IMG/VR virus record: IMGVR_UViG_3300023174_000040
Span: 124,001 to 188,000 of that record
Strand: one strand, 5' to 3'
DNA from: a virus
Length of the DNA: 64,000 bases
The notes under the pieces are model-generated. The model did no database searches, was not told where the DNA came from, and was given only the letters and a program-made list of their open reading frames with translations. Positions 3,797 to 63,448 of this stretch are shown here, in pieces. The first letter of the stretch is position 1. Each line of letters opens with the position of its first letter. The position numbers and the translations under genes are program-made.

Positions 3797-4053
3797 AATT
3801 CCATAAAGTTTTTATAACAATATTTATAGGAATTCTATTTTATGTCTTCCTTGGAGTAATAATATACAATCAGAGAACAACAATATACAATCAGAAAAAA
3901 AATTACATCAAACATAGAAACATAATTAGTGATTTAGAATACCAGAACAAGAAACTAGAGTATCAGAATGATAAATTAGTAAACCATATAGAAATCTTAA
4001 ATAATAGAATCGTAATCTTATCGGCAAGATCTAGTGAACTACCCACCCCCTAA
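3793..4053 (+). CDS. small membrane-anchored coiled-coil protein, 3' end altered by IS insertion
   Basis: ATGA overlap with the upstream stop. One transmembrane helix (residues about 5-25) is followed by a charged coiled coil with repeated EYQN/LEYQND. The last residues (ELPTP) are encoded by the right end of the IS605-type element, so the original C terminus was probably cut off by the insertion. The layout resembles phage spanin or Rz-like proteins, but that is speculative. Confidence 0.55.
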   Translation: MKFHKVFITIFIGILFYVFLGVIIYNQRTTIYNQKKNYIKHRNIISDLEYQNKKLEYQNDKLVNHIEILNNRIVILSARSSELPTP

Positions 4054-5219
4054 AGGGAGTGGGCTTCCTGTTTCAACCTCGGTTGCCCTTGATTGCTCTC
4101 AGGTCTTACACCAAGTCCACAGGCTATTCCCGTAGTTCCTACGGTTCTTTTCGCTTCATTAAGTATGTTAATCGCAGCATTGGTGTCACGATCATGCCTA
4201 ATCTTGCACTTCGGACACTCCCAACTACGAACACTCAACGGTAAACTTTCTACTACAAAATTACACTTTGAACAAGTCTTACTTGAAGGAAACCACCTTC
4301 CAACCTTAATGACTGTTCTACCGTGCCAGTTTGCCTTGTATTCAATTTGACGAACGAATTCGCTCATTGATACATCAGCGACACTCTTGCTCAAACACCT
4401 GTTCTTCATCATGCCACTTACATTCAAGTCTTCCAAACAAATCACTTGGTTCTCGTTGATTATTTGGCGACTTACCTTATGTAAGTGGTCATTACGGATG
4501 TTTGCTATCTTCAAGTGCAATTTTGCCAATCGTTTTCTTGATTTCTCCTTGTTTTTACTACCCTTATTTCTTCGGCTGTGTTCTTTGTTCAACATGCGTA
4601 GTCTGACTTCAAGGTTCTTGTAACTGCGGATATTCTTGTATTTCTTGCCGTCACTCAATGTTGCAAGGCTGTTGATTCCAAGATCAACGCCAACCTTGTT
4701 TTTGTTCTTTTTAAGAGGTTTGATTTCTTTTTCAACCAAGATTGAAACAAAGTATTGTCCTGCCTTATTCATAGTCAATGTTGCGTGTCGTATATTTCCG
4801 TTGATCGGACGGTGTAGTTTTACCTTTATGCCTTCATTGAACTTAGGGAAGTGTATTTTGTTTTCCTTCACCTCCACGAACTGAGGCACAGTAAAACTTT
4901 GTTTGTCTCGTCTGCTGTGGAACTTGGGTAATTTTGCTCTTTTGCTAAAGAAATTGTTATATGCTATATCAAGGCACTTTAGTTCAAACTGCAATACTTG
5001 ACTGTTGGTTCCGTACAGCCAATCCTTTTCTTTCTTGAGATTGGTCAGTTCTTTTGCTTGTTTGTAGTAGTTTGGACTTTTCTTGGTTTTGATGTATGAT
5101 GTTTTCCTCTGGTCAAGGAAGTGGTTGTACACAAACCTACAACAACCAAAGTGAATGGCTAGTTTGTTTTGTTGCTCCTTGTTCGGATACAGTCTGTATT
5201 TGTAAGTGTAGTGAACCAT
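4050..5219 (-). CDS. tnpB: TnpB RNA-guided nuclease (OrfB)
   Basis: About 390 residues. The N terminus MVHYTYKYRLYPNKEQQ is typical of the family. RuvC-like catalytic residues are visible: Asp in GVDLGINSLA, Glu in CLEDLNVSGM, and Asp in DRDTNAAINIL. A zinc ribbon CSKC...CPKC lies between the last two. All catalytic residues are intact, so the protein should be an active omegaRNA-guided nuclease; the guide would be read from sequence flanking the right end near 4033. The start at 5219 is preferred over 5294 because the family begins with the YKYRLYP segment. Confidence 0.93.
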   Translation of the reverse strand: MVHYTYKYRLYPNKEQQNKLAIHFGCCRFVYNHFLDQRKTSYIKTKKSPNYYKQAKELTNLKKEKDWLYGTNSQVLQFELKCLDIAYNNFFSKRAKLPKFHSRRDKQSFTVPQFVEVKENKIHFPKFNEGIKVKLHRPINGNIRHATLTMNKAGQYFVSILVEKEIKPLKKNKNKVGVDLGINSLATLSDGKKYKNIRSYKNLEVRLRMLNKEHSRRNKGSKNKEKSRKRLAKLHLKIANIRNDHLHKVSRQIINENQVICLEDLNVSGMMKNRCLSKSVADVSMSEFVRQIEYKANWHGRTVIKVGRWFPSSKTCSKCNFVVESLPLSVRSWECPKCKIRHDRDTNAAINILNEAKRTVGTTGIACGLGVRPESNQGQPRLKQEAHSL

Positions 5220-5260
5220 AATTATGCAAGGGTTTAAAGCCTGCATAATTATGTATGCAC
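5220..5260. repeat. inverted repeat upstream of tnpB
   Basis: ATAATTATGCA and TGCATAATTAT face each other around a 12-base loop just upstream of the tnpB start. It is probably a subterminal hairpin of the IS left end or a tnpB leader structure. Confidence 0.5.
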
Positions 5261-5365
5261 TTGAGTTGAAATTTTTTTCAGAGTTTACCGCCATTCATCC
5301 CAGCCCCTAAAGGGACTGGGTTTTCTGGCGGCGAGGATATAAAGAGGAAAAATCCAGGTAATATC

Positions 5366-6414: not shown

Positions 6415-6432
6415 GTTTCTTTCGGGTACGGT
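6415..6432 (+). promoter_or_regulatory. GGTACGGT motif, long form
   Basis: GTTTC lies exactly 10 bases before GGTACGGT. Predicted start of RNA at G6430. The leader can fold TGTT/AACA. It precedes the 6474 operon. Confidence 0.7.
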
Positions 6433-7863: not shown

Positions 7864-8475
7864 ATGAAAAAAATTACTATTTTGGGTGATGTTCACGGCA
7901 AATATAGACGTATGCACGAAATAATTCGTGAGAAAGATCGTCATGAATACATAGTCCAAATTGGCGACCTGGGTTTCGATTTTTCTACATTAGATAATGT
8001 CGATCCAAAAAAGTTTGTTATTGTCGGCGGTAATCACGATAACTATTCAAAAATAATTAATATTCCACATTATCTTGGCGACTATGGATACATGGTTAAT
8101 TTCAACGGAATAGATTTTTTCTACTACCGTGGAGCATATAGTATTGATAAACAATACAGAACTATCGGAATTGATTGGTGGTCAGAAGAACAAGTGTCTG
8201 TTGAACAATTCATGAAGGCTAGGGAACTTTATAGAAGCATCAAGCCGGATATTATGCTCACGCATGATTGTCCGGAAACTATTTCTCCTTATTTGTTGGA
8301 TCCACATACTCAGATGTATCAAAATCAAACAGGATATTTCTTGCAAGAATTGTTTAATATTCACCAACCAAAAAGTTGGTATTTTGGACACTACCATAAG
8401 AGTTGGCAAATGACAGTCAATGGAACTAATTTTAGATGCTTAAATGAATTAGAAACTTGTAGTCTTGAAATATAA
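7864..8475 (+). CDS. calcineurin-like metallophosphoesterase
   Basis: 203 residues with the ordered metal-binding motifs GDVHGK (residues 8-13), GDLGF, GGNHDN, LTHDCP and FGHYHK. It may act on nucleotides, phosphoproteins or nucleic-acid ends; phages often carry such enzymes. The start at 7864 places the first motif at the usual distance. It lies directly after a terminator and has no motif of its own. Confidence 0.88.
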   Translation: MKKITILGDVHGKYRRMHEIIREKDRHEYIVQIGDLGFDFSTLDNVDPKKFVIVGGNHDNYSKIINIPHYLGDYGYMVNFNGIDFFYYRGAYSIDKQYRTIGIDWWSEEQVSVEQFMKARELYRSIKPDIMLTHDCPETISPYLLDPHTQMYQNQTGYFLQELFNIHQPKSWYFGHYHKSWQMTVNGTNFRCLNELETCSLEI

Positions 8476-8497
8476 TCCCCCCCTCCTTGCCCTCCTG

Positions 8498-8515
8498 GTT
8501 TCCCTGCGGTACGGT
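8498..8515 (+). promoter_or_regulatory. GGTACGGT motif, long form
   Basis: GTTTCCCTGC + GGTACGGT. Predicted RNA start G8513. A TTTG/CAAA hairpin is possible in the leader. It drives the SWIM protein gene. Confidence 0.7.
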
Positions 8516-8555
8516 TTGGTATCGGGTAGACTTCACAAATACAGGAGAAAAATAA

Positions 8556-45379: not shown

Positions 45380-45445
45380 TGGTGGTTGTTCCCGATTCAA
45401 CGTGAGTCTGGAAGAAAGGGTTGTTTAAAGAGGGAGTTTAATACT

Positions 45446-45700
45446 ATGGGTCGTGCTAAGGGTCAGGCTGGTGTGTCGCTGGAGCGTTTCCTTACCTGTG
45501 TCATCGAGACGCAGCGGGCTGGTGGTAGCGTTGAGGATGTTGCGAACGAACTGGGCATTGTGGCCGGTTCGGTTTCGGTGCGTCTTTCGCAGTTGCGGAA
45601 GAAGCATGGTCTGAACATCCCTCGCTTTGAGGGTGGTGGTCGGACTAGCAACACCGCTGAACGGGCAGCGATGATCCTCGCCTCGCTTGGGGTTGAGTGA
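45446..45700 (+). CDS. HTH protein, paralogue 2
   Basis: 84 residues. MGRAKGQAGVSLERFLTCVIETQRAGGSVEDVANELGIVAGSVSVRLSQLRKKHG: helix-turn-helix with GSVSVR as recognition helix region, and a conserved tail FEGGGRTSNTAERAAMILASLGV. Close to paralogues 4 and 5. Confidence 0.8.
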   Translation: MGRAKGQAGVSLERFLTCVIETQRAGGSVEDVANELGIVAGSVSVRLSQLRKKHGLNIPRFEGGGRTSNTAERAAMILASLGVE

Positions 45701-46406: not shown

Positions 46407-46479
46407 GCGGCTTTAGCTCAATTGGCAGAGCAAGGGGCTTTTAACCTCTAGGTTCCGGGTTCGATTCCCGGAGGCCGCA
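46407..46479 (+). tRNA. tRNA-Lys (UUU)
   Basis: 73 bases. Acceptor GCGGCTT/AGGCCGC, D-arm GCTC/GAGC, anticodon loop CTTTTAA (TTT at 46440-46442), T-arm CCGGGTTCGATTCCCGG. Confidence 0.95.
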
Positions 46480-46487
46480 CTCTTTCT

Positions 46488-48318: not shown

Positions 48319-48326
48319 GGTACGGT
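48319..48326 (+). promoter_or_regulatory. GGTACGGT motif touching tRNA-Ser
   Basis: The core ends at 48326 and tRNA-Ser begins at 48327. A start at G48324 would leave a 3-base leader. Confidence 0.7.
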
Positions 48327-48413
48327 GGAATCTTGGCCGAGCGGATTATGGCAGCGGTTTACTAAACCGCCGAAGGTTAAAATCTTCCGGGGGTTCGAAT
48401 CCCTCAGATTCCG
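48327..48413 (+). tRNA. tRNA-Ser (ACU anticodon)
   Basis: 87 bases. Acceptor GGAATCT/AGATTCC, long variable arm (GAAGG...CTTCC), T-arm GGGGTTCGAATCCCT. The anticodon stem GCGGT/ACCGC encloses TTACTAA, giving ACT at 48361-48363, which reads AGT. A34 here is unusual; bacteria normally use GCU. U33 and A37 are normal. Confidence 0.88.
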
Positions 48414-48430
48414 TTTTATGGAATAATAAT

Positions 48431-50010: not shown

Positions 50011-50265
50011 ATGGGTCGTCAAGTTGGACAGAAGGGTGTCGCTCTGGAGAAGTTCCTGACCACGGTGGTCGAGACGCAGCGGGCCGGCGGTTCGGTGCAG
50101 GACGTTGCCGATGCTCTGGGCATCACGGCCGGTTCGGTGTCGGTGCGTCTCTCGCAGTTGCGGAAGAAGCACGGTGTGAACGTCCCCCGGTTCGAGGGGT
50201 CGGGCCGCACCAGCAACACCGCAGAGCGGGCGGCTGAGATTCTCGCCAGCCTTGGGGTTGGTTGA
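50011..50265 (+). CDS. HTH protein, paralogue 4 (GC-rich)
   Basis: 84 residues. VALEKFLTTVVETQRAGGSVQDVADALGITAGSVSVRLSQLRKKHG and the TSNTAERAAEILASLGV tail. Base composition is clearly more GC-rich than its neighbours, which suggests recent arrival or different selection. A terminator follows. Confidence 0.82.
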   Translation: MGRQVGQKGVALEKFLTTVVETQRAGGSVQDVADALGITAGSVSVRLSQLRKKHGVNVPRFEGSGRTSNTAERAAEILASLGVG

Positions 50266-50335: not shown

Positions 50336-50358
50336 TTGTTATAGACTATATTGTTTTT

Positions 50359-50365
50359 GGTACGG
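50359..50365 (+). promoter_or_regulatory. GGTACGG motif overlapping tRNA-Glu
   Basis: The last GG of the core is G1-G2 of tRNA-Glu (GGCCCTA from 50364). If RNA starts at this GG, the tRNA needs no 5' trimming. Confidence 0.75.
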
Positions 50366-50438
50366 CCCTATCGTATAGCCCGGTCTAGTACATCCCCCTT
50401 TCACGGGGAAAACATCGGTTCAAATCCGATTAGGGTCA
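50364..50438 (+). tRNA. tRNA-Glu (UUC)
   Basis: 75 bases. Acceptor GGCCCTA/TAGGGTC (one G-U), anticodon loop CTTTCAC with TTC at 50400-50402, T-arm ATCGGTTCAAATCCGAT. Its 3' end overlaps the stop of the opposing HNH gene. Confidence 0.93.
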
Positions 50439-51143
50439 TTTAATCCACTTCTTGATTGTGTTGCCTGTAACACCATATTTTCTTCCTGTGGCATTATAGC
50501 CGTTTACTTTTATTTCATTTAAAAGCAAATCCATTTCAGGTCTTTCTACTTTTCTCATCTTCATAACTTGTTGTTTATGTATATGGGATACGTAACATCC
50601 AGCACAATATTTGCTGCTCTTTGAAACTTTTTTATCACATAAGATACACAAGTGTTTAACAAACCTTTTGCCACTATGAGTATGTGTTTGGCTATGACAG
50701 TTAGGACAAAGTAATCTTAAGTTTTCAATTCTATTGTCATTTGATATACCGTTAATATGATCTAATTGTATTGTTAATGGTTCACCATGCCACTCACCAT
50801 TGTTTCCACATTTAGAACATTTATTTTCCCATCCTAGTTCAATAAGTAATCTTCTTTTTAAATTACATCTATTATAGGTTGAGTTTTTAACCATAACTTG
50901 TGAAAGAGGAATTTTCTCTGATTGAAACTTCCTTCCCTTATTACTACCTAAGCCTAATTTAATATGGGAATAATCAATCTGCTCTTCGTCCAATCTTCGT
51001 TTAAGTATTTTGTACGATGCTCCACTTGAAACCATTTCGCATTTCCGTATAATCTCTGCTATGCTACTTGAAGATTTAACAATCTCCATCATTGTCTCTT
51101 TAGGTATCTTCCAGAATAAACTTGTTCGCTCCCTTTCACGCAT
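50436..51143 (-). CDS. HNH homing endonuclease
   Basis: 235 residues. CSKCGNNGEW, then IQLDHINGISNDNRIENLRLLCPNCHSQTHTHSGKR: the HNH motif with two zinc CxxC pairs. N- and C-terminal helices (EMDLLLNEIKVNGYNATGRKYGVTGNTIKKWI) look like DNA-binding modules. SD GGAG before the start. The stop TGA lies within the last three bases of tRNA-Glu. Confidence 0.9.
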   Translation of the reverse strand: MRERERTSLFWKIPKETMMEIVKSSSSIAEIIRKCEMVSSGASYKILKRRLDEEQIDYSHIKLGLGSNKGRKFQSEKIPLSQVMVKNSTYNRCNLKRRLLIELGWENKCSKCGNNGEWHGEPLTIQLDHINGISNDNRIENLRLLCPNCHSQTHTHSGKRFVKHLCILCDKKVSKSSKYCAGCYVSHIHKQQVMKMRKVERPEMDLLLNEIKVNGYNATGRKYGVTGNTIKKWIK

Positions 51144-51151
51144 AAATCTCC

Positions 51152-51199
51152 TTTAAAGTTAGAACCGTGTATACACTAATATAGTGTCCTAACTTTAAA
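51152..51199. promoter_or_regulatory. inverted repeat upstream of the HNH gene
   Basis: TTTAAAGTTAG against CTAACTTTAAA, with inner ACACT/AGTGT. Between divergent genes; an operator or promoter of the endonuclease is plausible. Confidence 0.45.
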
Positions 51200-51212
51200 T
51201 TTTAAAAACATT

Positions 51213-51422
51213 ATGAAACGATCAAATAACTATTCTGTGAAAGAAGAAGGCCGCTGGTTTGTGGTTTATAAGGATCACAAGCCAGTCACCGATAAAGGCG
51301 ATATTCACCAAAAGCCATTTGTAGTCAAATGGCAGAATAAAGAATCAGCTGAAAAGTATATAAAAGAATTAAACAAAAACTTTGACGGTGAAACAATAGC
51401 CGGTCTGTATTCGGTACGGTAA
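51213..51422 (+). CDS. hypothetical protein, 69 aa
   Basis: Basic, YSVKEEGRWFVVYKDHKPV. Final codons TCG GTA CGG TAA are the promoter core of the next gene. Confidence 0.65.
   Translation: MKRSNNYSVKEEGRWFVVYKDHKPVTDKGDIHQKPFVVKWQNKESAEKYIKELNKNFDGETIAGLYSVR
51413..51420 (+). promoter_or_regulatory. GGTACGGT motif
   Basis: Overlaps the stop of the preceding gene; the next ATG is 8 bases downstream, no SD. Confidence 0.6.
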
Positions 51423-54803: not shown

Positions 54804-54881
54804 TAGGGTTTGTTCCGACAGCAAGCCAATGAGGCAAGCGGGAACCAAAGGGTTGGTAACTATAAGCAGGAGATGATTACT

Positions 54882-55142
54882 ATGGGTCGCCAAGTTGGTC
54901 AGAAGGGTGTTGATCTTGAGACGTTTCTCACCACGGTTATCGAAGTGCAGCGGGCTGGTGGCAGCGTCGAGGACGTTGCAAGCAAGTTGGGCATCGTTCC
55001 GGGTTCGGTGAGTGTTCGTCTGAGCCAGTTGCGGAAGAAGCACGGGCTGAACATCCCGAAGTTTGAGGGTGGTGGTCGCACCAGCAATACCAAGGAGCGT
55101 GCGACGGAGATTCTCGCCAGCCTTGGCGTCGAGATGCTCTGA
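54882..55142 (+). CDS. HTH protein, paralogue 5
   Basis: 86 residues. VDLETFLTTVIEVQRAGGSVEDVASKLGIVPGSVSVRLSQLRKKHG, tail TSNTKERATEILASLGV. Nearly identical HTH to paralogues 2 and 4. Confidence 0.82.
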   Translation: MGRQVGQKGVDLETFLTTVIEVQRAGGSVEDVASKLGIVPGSVSVRLSQLRKKHGLNIPKFEGGGRTSNTKERATEILASLGVEML

Positions 55143-62187: not shown

Positions 62188-62282
62188 ATATTTCGGAGGC
62201 TGACGCTGGTTATGTGAGGAAATTAAAAGGGAAATTAAAACCTTCCCTTTTAATTTCCATTCGAGAGAAATATCTTTTCGGT
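62188..62282 (+). promoter_or_regulatory. repeated riboswitch-like RNA element, copy 1
   Basis: P1 ATATTTC/GAAATAT, conserved internal strand CGGAGGCTGACGCTGGT, a long apical hairpin (GGAAATTAAAAGG/CCTTTTAATTTCC), then CATTCGAGA. The tRNA region follows. Confidence 0.55.
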
Positions 62283-62303
62283 TTTTTTGAATGACTGGTC
62301 TTA

Positions 62304-62339
62304 GCCAGTGTAGCTCAGTTGGTAGAGTAGCAGTTTTAT
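62304..62339 (+). pseudogene. 5' half of a tRNA
   Basis: GCCAGTGTAGCTCAGTTGGTAGAGTAGCAG has a proper D-arm (GCTC/GAG) but stops in the anticodon loop, where tRNA-Gln begins. Confidence 0.7.
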
Positions 62340-62411
62340 TGCCCGGTAGCTCAAAGATAGAGCGGCTGACTTTGGATCAGCGGGTTGCAGGTTTGAATCC
62401 TGCCCGGGCAT
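62340..62411 (+). tRNA. tRNA-Gln (UUG)
   Basis: 72 bases. Acceptor TGCCCGG/CCGGGCA with U1-A72 as usual for Gln, anticodon loop CTTTGGA (TTG at 62372-62374), T-arm GCAGGTTTGAATCCTGC. Confidence 0.93.
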
Positions 62412-62413
62412 CT

Positions 62414-63274
62414 TTAATTTTTTGGTTTGGTCCAACCCAATGATGATTTAATTTTTCCTCTTAAAAGAAGCATAATATTTCCTCTGTTTAAATTATTGTC
62501 TCGGCAGAATTTATTTAAATTTTTTATTTTAATTAAATTTCCATTTGGATCAATTATACTAAATTCTTTAGCATATTTCTCAGCTAATTTTTTGTGCCCT
62601 TTTGCCCTACCTTCCTTGTTTCTTGGGTTATTTTGATCGTGTATTCCATTTTTATTTTCATGAGCTTTTTTGCCGCCAATTTTTCCACCATTTGCTCCGA
62701 TTTTTTTGTAGTATTGATAGATGTCTGATTCGTTTAATCTATCCAATCTTTTTAAAATTCCTCTTCTTTGTATTGATTTTCTTTCCTCGTTTGACATTTT
62801 GCCCAATCCAGCCGCATATGCTCTCTTGGCATTTTCACGTAGCTGTTCTTTTGTCATTGAAAACAATCCTTTTTTTAAAGTCTTGCATTTCATTCCAATT
62901 TCCCTAAGAGTTTCAATATCACAAGTCGGAGAAAATCTACTTCCATTCAGGCAACCTTCTTTGCCATAATGTTCTTCTGTTAGTTTATTTTCAAAATCAG
63001 AACATTTTATTTCGTCGCAAAACAAGCATATTATCTCTTTTATTATTTTGTTGTTTTTTTCTATTTGTTCTAAAAATACTTTTCTGTTAACTTTGGGGCT
63101 TCCAATATATTTGTCACTTAAAATATCCCCTTTAAACTTTCTTTTTCCGTAATAATACGGAACAACTCCATTCTCTATTGCATCTGGGAAACTTGTTTTA
63201 TATATGTAAAAATTACCTTCTACTTCCTTGTAAGATAATTTTATTTCTACATTACTGTAAAAAATTCTTTTCAT
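62414..63274 (-). CDS. homing endonuclease with C-terminal NUMOD-like repeat
   Basis: About 286 residues from ATG 63274 (MKRIFYSNVEIKLSYKEV). FYIYKTSFPD...YYYGKRKF...DKYIGS resembles a GIY-YIG-type N-terminal catalytic core, with two Cys pairs. Central GGKIGGKKAHENKNGIHD and the end FSIIDPNGNLIKIKNLNKFCRDNNLNRGNIMLLLRGK...GWTK are typical of phage homing nucleases. Its stop lies 3 bases from the tRNA-Gln 3' end. Confidence 0.8.
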   Translation of the reverse strand: MKRIFYSNVEIKLSYKEVEGNFYIYKTSFPDAIENGVVPYYYGKRKFKGDILSDKYIGSPKVNRKVFLEQIEKNNKIIKEIICLFCDEIKCSDFENKLTEEHYGKEGCLNGSRFSPTCDIETLREIGMKCKTLKKGLFSMTKEQLRENAKRAYAAGLGKMSNEERKSIQRRGILKRLDRLNESDIYQYYKKIGANGGKIGGKKAHENKNGIHDQNNPRNKEGRAKGHKKLAEKYAKEFSIIDPNGNLIKIKNLNKFCRDNNLNRGNIMLLLRGKIKSSLGWTKPKN

Positions 63275-63338: not shown

Positions 63339-63423
63339 TGTTCTCGGAGGCTGATGCTAGTGATCTGTATTGAGAAATTAAAATCTTCATTTTTAATTTC
63401 CGTTCGAGAGAATAACGTTTTCG
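63339..63423 (+). promoter_or_regulatory. repeated riboswitch-like RNA element, copy 2
   Basis: TTCTC/GAGAA closing stem, CGGAGGCTGATGCTAGT, GAAATTAAAA/TTTTAATTTC apical hairpin, CGTTCGAGA. It lies in the leader of the 63449 gene. Confidence 0.6.
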
Positions 63424-63448
63424 CCATGGAGGGCGATGAGGGCAATTT

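Follow-up and report, generated by a model that had tools for sequence, protein, structure and literature searches.

Sequence comparison identifies the gene abutting tRNA-Glu in the genome of this giant bacterial virus as a free-standing HNH homing endonuclease gene of the T5 HegA/F-TflIV (phrog_10822) family, with a predicted cleavage function, and places the home of the family at the tRNA gene boundary, the present locus being one case. The best reading, which we hold to be probable, is that a HegA-family homing endonuclease homes at this boundary with co-conversion of a divergent tRNA. The stretch of DNA analysed (the window) comprises 64,000 nucleotides, which correspond to bases 124001-188000 of a 323,267-base IMG/VR virus record; its features are listed in the table.

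The HNH gene and tRNA-Glu are convergent and overlap by the 3 nt of the stop codon, as seen from the sequence and the list of open reading frames (ORFs). The initial annotation had described an HNH homing endonuclease abutting tRNA-Glu, which was borne out by ARAGORN, Rfam, the ORF list, Pfam and phrog_10822; its placement of the opposing stop codon within the last three bases of the tRNA also proved correct. That a tRNA is able to provide the stop codon of a nuclease at such loci is a practical caution for gene annotation. The gene is a complete ORF with its own start outside any intron or intein, and hence free-standing. Its leader folds into a hairpin of -16.1 kcal/mol (z -3.66), which finds no support as a family trait, with a stem of at least 8 in 16/70 leaders and p of 0.05 or below in 9/70. 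The Rfam scan detected no group I intron (RF00028) anywhere in the window, and a group I intron-encoded endonuclease was rejected for the window HNH on this ground.

Table. Features of the window at and around the tRNA genes.
Feature	Position	Strand	Basis or remark
tRNA-Lys, empty in the window; HNH_2 gene there in G001	46407..46480	+	ARAGORN
tRNA-Ser; no ARAGORN tRNA at the same place in G001	48326..48414	+	ARAGORN
tRNA-Glu (anticodon UUC), no intron	50364..50438	+	ARAGORN; Rfam RF00005 59.1 bits
Segment that varies as one block between window phage and G001 (tRNA-Glu, HNH gene and leader)	50366..51205		flanks 97-99% identical
HNH gene stop TGA, complement of TCA, the final three tRNA-Glu bases	50436..50438	-	sequence
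HNH homing endonuclease gene, 235 aa, ATG start	50436..51143	-	ORF list, Pfam HNH, phrog_10822
HNH leader hairpin, 11-bp perfect stem into AAAGGAG ribosome-binding site	51152..51199	-	inverted repeat
Broken tRNA 5' half, fused directly to tRNA-Gln, break in anticodon arm	62304..62339	+	sequence
tRNA-Gln (UUG), second site	62340..62412	+	ARAGORN; Rfam 65.3 bits
Second putative nuclease gene, unrelated, 286 aa, frame open to 63481	62414..63274	-	phrog_2081

The protein matches the Pfam HNH family (PF01844) with an E-value of 5.6e-6, and phrog_10822 covers its residues 14-235 (E 3.7e-49). T5 HegA, which also matches phrog_10822 (E 3.1e-27), aligns to the window protein at 27% over 136 aa (E 2e-17). 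Alignment of 38 family members revealed the invariant residues C109, C112, H129, G132, N141, C146, P147, N148 and C149; thus, both the HNH motif (H129, N141) and the zinc-binding cysteines (C109/C112 and C146/C149) are intact in the window protein. In the AlphaFold2 model (mean pLDDT 92.5, pTM 0.55), the HNH core with its CxxC pairs spans residues ~105-155, and we read the remainder as an N-terminal helical domain, a zinc-ribbon-like segment at ~165-185 and a C-terminal HTH-like domain at ~204-235. Structural similarity search using Foldseek gave weak matches, the best being McrA (E 0.016). Pfam and PHROGs return HNH families and no GIY-YIG domain for the window protein, which sets it apart from the SegB family.

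Further analysis of the family in viral contigs, in which 80 of 584 relatives were kept, yielded 73 dereplicated loci, 72 of them with a complete ORF; the remaining one (L070) was dropped from the counts. A stop was taken as flush if it fell within -45 to +15 nt of a tRNA boundary, and the other ORFs of at least 100 aa at the same loci served as controls. With ARAGORN tRNAs only, 38/72 family genes stop at a tRNA boundary, compared to 39/384 other ORFs, whereas gene starts show no enrichment there (3/72 versus 13/384). Could the gene lie beside the tRNA by chance, in a genome this compact? The tRNA regions of phages are dense, and some other ORFs are flush as well; however, the odds ratio of 9.9 (p 4e-15), the 13.6 cases expected by within-locus permutation against the 38 observed, and the same association in bacterial chromosomes leave chance a negligible share of the probability. 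A scan with another HNH protein as a control family, Francesca gp91, gave one relative, so that the comparison is with same-locus ORFs. The addition of tRNAs from Rfam and intron searches, made near the HNH alone at nine loci (six of which alter the stop-end count), raises the flush cases to 44/72, and 67/72 genes, with these tRNAs included, lie within 150 nt of a tRNA. The conserved coding part often extends to a few bases from the tRNA, with the stop codon frequently falling within the tRNA. Among the 44 flush cases, 31 adjoin a codirectional tRNA at its 5' end and 13 a convergent tRNA at its 3' end, as in the window, so that the 3' ends named by the initial annotation are the less common of the two kinds of site. 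The adjacent tRNAs are also biased in isotype, with tRNA-Gln making up 26/82 of them versus 24/394.

Most members thus reside at tRNAs, yet other insertion sites, which the initial annotation had named as evidence against its proposal, do occur: the HNH gene of Streptomyces phage EGole lies ~1 kb from the nearest tRNA, the stretch around that of Staphylococcus phage YCP contains no tRNA, and 11/80 bacterial loci are without an ARAGORN tRNA.

These bacterial loci, each up to ~5 kb, were obtained by searching genome contigs with the alignment of 38 rows, and 80 of 401 bacterial relatives were kept. An ARAGORN tRNA is present in 69/80, which by our estimate is far above expectation because chromosomal tRNAs are sparse. 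Many members lie beside one lone host tRNA, chiefly tRNA-Gln(UUG) and tRNA-Leu, with long HNH forms after tRNA-Gln(UUG) (18/37 codirectional) and short HNH forms ending at tRNA-Leu (24/43 codirectional). Compared to the other tRNAs, the adjacent ones are enriched in both Gln (32/71 versus 8/202) and Leu (30/71 versus 38/202), in tests that are not independent because the loci come from related species. In 18 bacterial loci no ARAGORN tRNA is in range; Rfam recovers one in six, at most 34 nt from where the conserved part ends in five cases and 107 nt away in the sixth (L203), and 12 loci, five of them from Prevotella, have no near tRNA after ARAGORN and Rfam. The ORF reads through the tRNA in three of the six (L205, L217 and L218). 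On a quick tree of 154 proteins, whose close relatives inflate the contrast, 17 changes suffice to place the labels Gln, Leu and other, versus a mean of 57.1 after shuffling (0/200 as low). Comparison of the sequences shows that the preference for tRNA-Gln or tRNA-Leu follows the HNH protein tree.

Rhodococcus provides an example of a chromosomal site. The gene is found in 18/18 genomes, always beside tRNA-Leu(UAG). Its stop lies 17 nt from the tRNA in nine genomes and at 0-47 nt in another seven; for G012 and G014, which have a tandem pair, the measurement refers to the distal copy. Such fixation is unlike the prediction for a homing gene of fast turnover, though broken copies exist, and it suggests that host tRNAs serve as sites too. 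Retention at the same tRNA with an HNH motif intact in most copies would also suit a useful gene, kept by selection for phage competition or as a host gene (marker exclusion or defence), to which the tRNA surroundings are merely permissive. Nevertheless, the copies are in tandem in four genomes and broken in two (G015 and G022), and at higher rank the gene is patchy, with matches in 26/150 genomes of the order and 20/121 of the family, several being only ~50-residue remnants; we therefore regard selection for a useful function as an improbable account. In G265, with no HNH match listed, the neighbours (upstream gene, tRNA-Leu(UAG) and downstream gene) are those of the occupied genomes, and the distance from the upstream gene end to the tRNA is ~300 nt in G265 versus 823-944 nt in the occupied genomes. 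As judged by this arrangement of neighbours, G265 has an empty site in a bacterial chromosome.

Using a neighbouring 92-aa protein as the query, 12 loci were recovered for comparison with the window locus. A close relative is a 251 kb record (G001, locus L082), whose match to the window extends to 50365 on the upstream side and resumes at 51206 on the downstream side, with identities of 494/500 upstream and 114/118 and 488/500 downstream. It has no HNH gene at this locus, and its tRNA-Glu(ttc) is only 44/75 identical to that of the window. In a second record (G002, locus L083; flanks 81-83%), the tRNA and the HNH gene are both missing. At the left junction stands the motif GGTACGG, the final GG of which forms the first bases of tRNA-Glu, and the right junction lies directly before the ATG of the next gene. 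From these alignments and junctions, the differing segment consists of the tRNA plus the HNH gene plus its leader, present or absent at an otherwise conserved site. The comparison with nuclease-free relatives that the initial annotation proposed thus yielded such relatives, but the nuclease was not merely dropped beside a standing tRNA, because the tRNA-Glu of the HNH-less G001 itself differs. Against homing here, the change is seen in a single close pair, and its direction may be the reverse, with G001 having lost the HNH gene.

Two other explanations bear on this segment. An integrase-type element might use the tRNA 3' end, a classic attachment site, and the convergent layout has a similar look. 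However, the segment encodes no integrase, and the family uses either end of the tRNA. No direct repeat of at least 11 nt was found in 50340-51240; lacking such a repeat at the far boundary, the tRNA attachment site was rejected, and we give an element of this type hardly any credence. The other explanation is that tRNA and small-gene modules are swapped by ordinary recombination at the short motif GGTACGGT, the HNH gene being a passenger that cuts no tRNA gene. The left junction coincides exactly with a shared TTTTTGGTACGG; GGTACGGT occurs 40 times in the window, on the + strand only, versus 0.4 expected; and a tRNA module, an extra tRNA-Leu segment in G001, differs where neither phage has a recognised nuclease. 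Such swapping leaves unexplained both the flush HNH/tRNA junctions in unrelated phages and bacterial chromosomes and the tRNA-isotype bias, and we judge it unlikely, albeit the strongest of the rivals. The 40 places of GGTACGGT range from window position 6425 to 60213, often directly ahead of small genes and tRNAs, and the motif is perhaps a transcription-start or processing signal.

Named phages illustrate how closely the gene and the tRNA are joined. In Francesca, the HNH gene fills the gap from tRNA-Gly to tRNA-Glu with zero spare bases; in mistaenkt and Michonne, it lies one base ahead of tRNA-Leu; and it overlaps the tRNA by 10, 7 and 10 bases in GodonK, Kenya-K16 and PPSC2, respectively. 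In LCK69 it is looser, 92 bases past tRNA-Gln and 175 ahead of tRNA-Arg. A flank-based search for empty sites among the family HNH loci gave nothing usable. Comparison of Michonne with Mijalis showed that the HNH gene and a 16 nt leader are inserted exactly at the 5' end of tRNA-Leu, with the tRNA retained. Michonne and 3HA14 have the same tRNA-Leu, and that of mistaenkt is 72/76 identical to that of the HNH-less fjerdesal. The tRNA is unchanged in the Felix O1-like phages, which counts against the favoured reading.

In EC122, 8 nt separates tRNA-Ala from tRNA-Leu, and the T5-like Kenya-K16 has the HNH gene there. The tRNA-Leu beside this nuclease is 56/82 identical between Kenya-K16 and S124, compared to the other six tRNAs, which are at most one base apart (72/73, 74/75, 76/76, 72/72, 72/73 and 72/73). 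The K16 tRNA-Leu allele was found in 22 records, six with and 16 without the HNH gene; therefore, the two are not strictly linked, which again counts against the favoured reading. Genes of other types overlap tRNAs in T5-like phages as well, namely the T5orf172 gene of S124 and, in phage T5, HegC (tRNA-Ser2, by 14 nt) and HegD (tRNA-Gln2, by 23 nt). T5.069, which belongs to phrog_5032, the same group as the S124 T5orf172 protein, overlaps tRNA-Asn by 24 nt.

The other tRNA loci of the window and its relatives show comparable differences. At tRNA-Gln, the initial annotation had seen the same layout with an unrelated nuclease. The opposing layout is indeed similar, but the stop of the second ORF lies 1 nt beyond the tRNA rather than within it, and its assignment as a nuclease is weak: phrog_2081 matches it C-terminally only (residues 231-283, E 1.9e-11), two Vibrio phage pVa5 records match at residues 230-283 only, Pfam finds no nuclease domain in it, and a search of viral contigs gave no relatives. 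The broken tRNA half of the window corresponds in the relatives to a tRNA-Thr that is complete but not similar to it. G002 has here a complete tRNA-Thr and a complete tRNA-Gln without a nuclease; G001 has tRNA-Thr, a tRNA-Gln interrupted in the anticodon loop by a group I intron (RF00028, 68.6 bits) and, from the window family, an HNH of 227 aa, whose ORF extends into the 3' part of the tRNA and whose gene shares 75.6% nucleotide identity with the window HNH over 90 core bases. The tRNA-Gln and the nuclease of the window differ from those of G001. At tRNA-Lys, G001 has an HNH_2 gene (203 aa, Pfam 1.2e-9) inserted ~8 nt past the tRNA, with an ORF overlapping the tRNA 3' end by 40 nt; here the tRNA-Lys genes of the window and G001 match at 58/74 positions, and their surroundings at 445/500 downstream and, less closely, at 84/111 in a stretch upstream. 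In G001, the tRNA-Ser place is occupied by an ORF of 171 aa, which is HNH-like by eye and matches no nuclease family. The proposal that tRNA 3' ends are the landing site of both mobile genes is thus sustained as regards tRNA genes being sites for several nuclease families, in G001 and in T5-like phages, and is wrong or incomplete as regards the end, both being used.

Several further features of these regions were observed. A leader-like element, CGGAGGCTGANGCTNG with a following inverted repeat, has two copies (62194-62290 and 63345-63425), one preceding the tRNA-Gln site and the other the next gene, with similar stretches in G001 and G002. A small HTH protein has three paralogues along the tRNA-bearing region (45386-45700, 50011-50265 and 54810-55142), and a full-length IS605 OrfB/TnpB-like protein (PF01385, 1.6e-27) is encoded at 4050-5294 on the - strand. 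In one phage (record G000, ~113.4 kb), tRNA-Leu adjoins a tmRNA gene (L101, 14382-14842). Several tRNAs in L119 and L118 (tRNA-Glu and tRNA-Thr of G001) have by eye unusual T-loop sequences, possibly an escape from a T-loop-reading nuclease. Group I introns lie in tRNA genes adjoining a family HNH in L017 (3690-3962; 65.5 bits by Rfam) and L118 (reverse strand, 8338-8530), and are candidates for collaborative homing. Rfam supports the intron calls for G001 and L017 only; those of L025 and L027 come from the intron mode of ARAGORN, and the Rfam scan of L025 does not list an intron.

For homing with co-conversion, the reading that we favour, the enzyme would cut or nick the tRNA gene, or the junction of tRNA and spacer, in a genome without the nuclease at that tRNA, be it a co-infecting phage or a sister chromosome. 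Recombination repair would then copy the nuclease across along with the adjoining tRNA, with gene conversion as the presumed transfer step. The donor would be spared by its own enzyme through an altered site, and we infer that three kinds of alteration protect the carrier: a flush insertion that splits the site and keeps the tRNA, as in the Felix O1-like phages; a divergent tRNA allele, as at the window locus and in the T5-like Kenya-K16 and S124; and interruption by a group I intron, as in the tRNA-Gln of G001. A bolder version, which we put forward tentatively as somewhat less likely than not to be right, is a "home and rescue" drive, in which the HNH family would destroy the unprotected tRNA gene of relatives and co-deliver a resistant replacement (divergent, intron-split or boundary-split), with an inherited preference for Gln UUG or Leu UAG, in phages as well as in bacterial chromosomes, where it would be fixed for whole genera. 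If so, the turnover of phage tRNA genes would be partly an arms race over nuclease targets. For the question of why phages carry and exchange tRNA genes, the HNH family offers a testable driver: selfish nucleases targeting tRNA genes would drag tRNA alleles between genomes.

Homing endonuclease genes in phage tRNA regions are already known from T5, SegB and the mycobacterial clusters. T5 HegA (F-TflIV) is a sequence relative of the window HNH, and HegA, HegC (F-TflI) and HegD (F-TflII) are all free-standing within the T5 tRNA region; the title of Akulenko 2004, as cited in PMC3326045, describes the T5 enzymes as site-specific endonucleases. The T5 heg genes are codirectional with the tRNAs, whereas the window HNH gene faces its tRNA and terminates within the 3' end of the latter; moreover, HegC and HegD best match other HNH families (phrog_59), unlike the window HNH. 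SegB of T4/T6 is, in the cited parts of PMC13096335 and PMC2988022, a free-standing homing endonuclease whose gene lies in a tRNA array; it cleaves within tRNA genes and promotes the spread of the tRNA region, and its homologues are enriched near tRNAs, within 1 kb. Its preferred cutting motif inside tRNA genes, given as RAWTSGAAC in PMC13096335, is in our reading the tRNA T-loop in reverse complement, and SegB is in this respect a precedent for the proposed mechanism. SegB is a GIY-YIG enzyme, whereas the window protein is an HNH enzyme; and the parts cited of the same two reports give proximity within 1 kb and mention neither flush junctions nor an isotype preference, whereas the window family prefers Gln and Leu. 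The concept of a group I intron paired with a nuclease, as outlined in PMC3984707 and PMC10448857, resembles the intron-split tRNA-Gln of G001 with its abutting family HNH, and likewise L017, but differs from the window tRNA-Glu, where an intron is absent. In mycobacteria and mycobacteriophages, HNH homing genes occur together with large tRNA clusters, according to the cited passages of PMC6582537, PMC9569102 and PMC6409571; these systems are large transferred clusters, whereas many bacterial members of the window family sit at one lone tRNA. A literature search, leaving aside the T5 paper of Akulenko 2004, gave, among the papers listed, no description of flush tRNA boundaries, isotype preference or lone chromosomal tRNA sites for the HNH family. 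Altogether, the family-wide flush junctions, the isotype bias and the chromosomal sites appear to be new.
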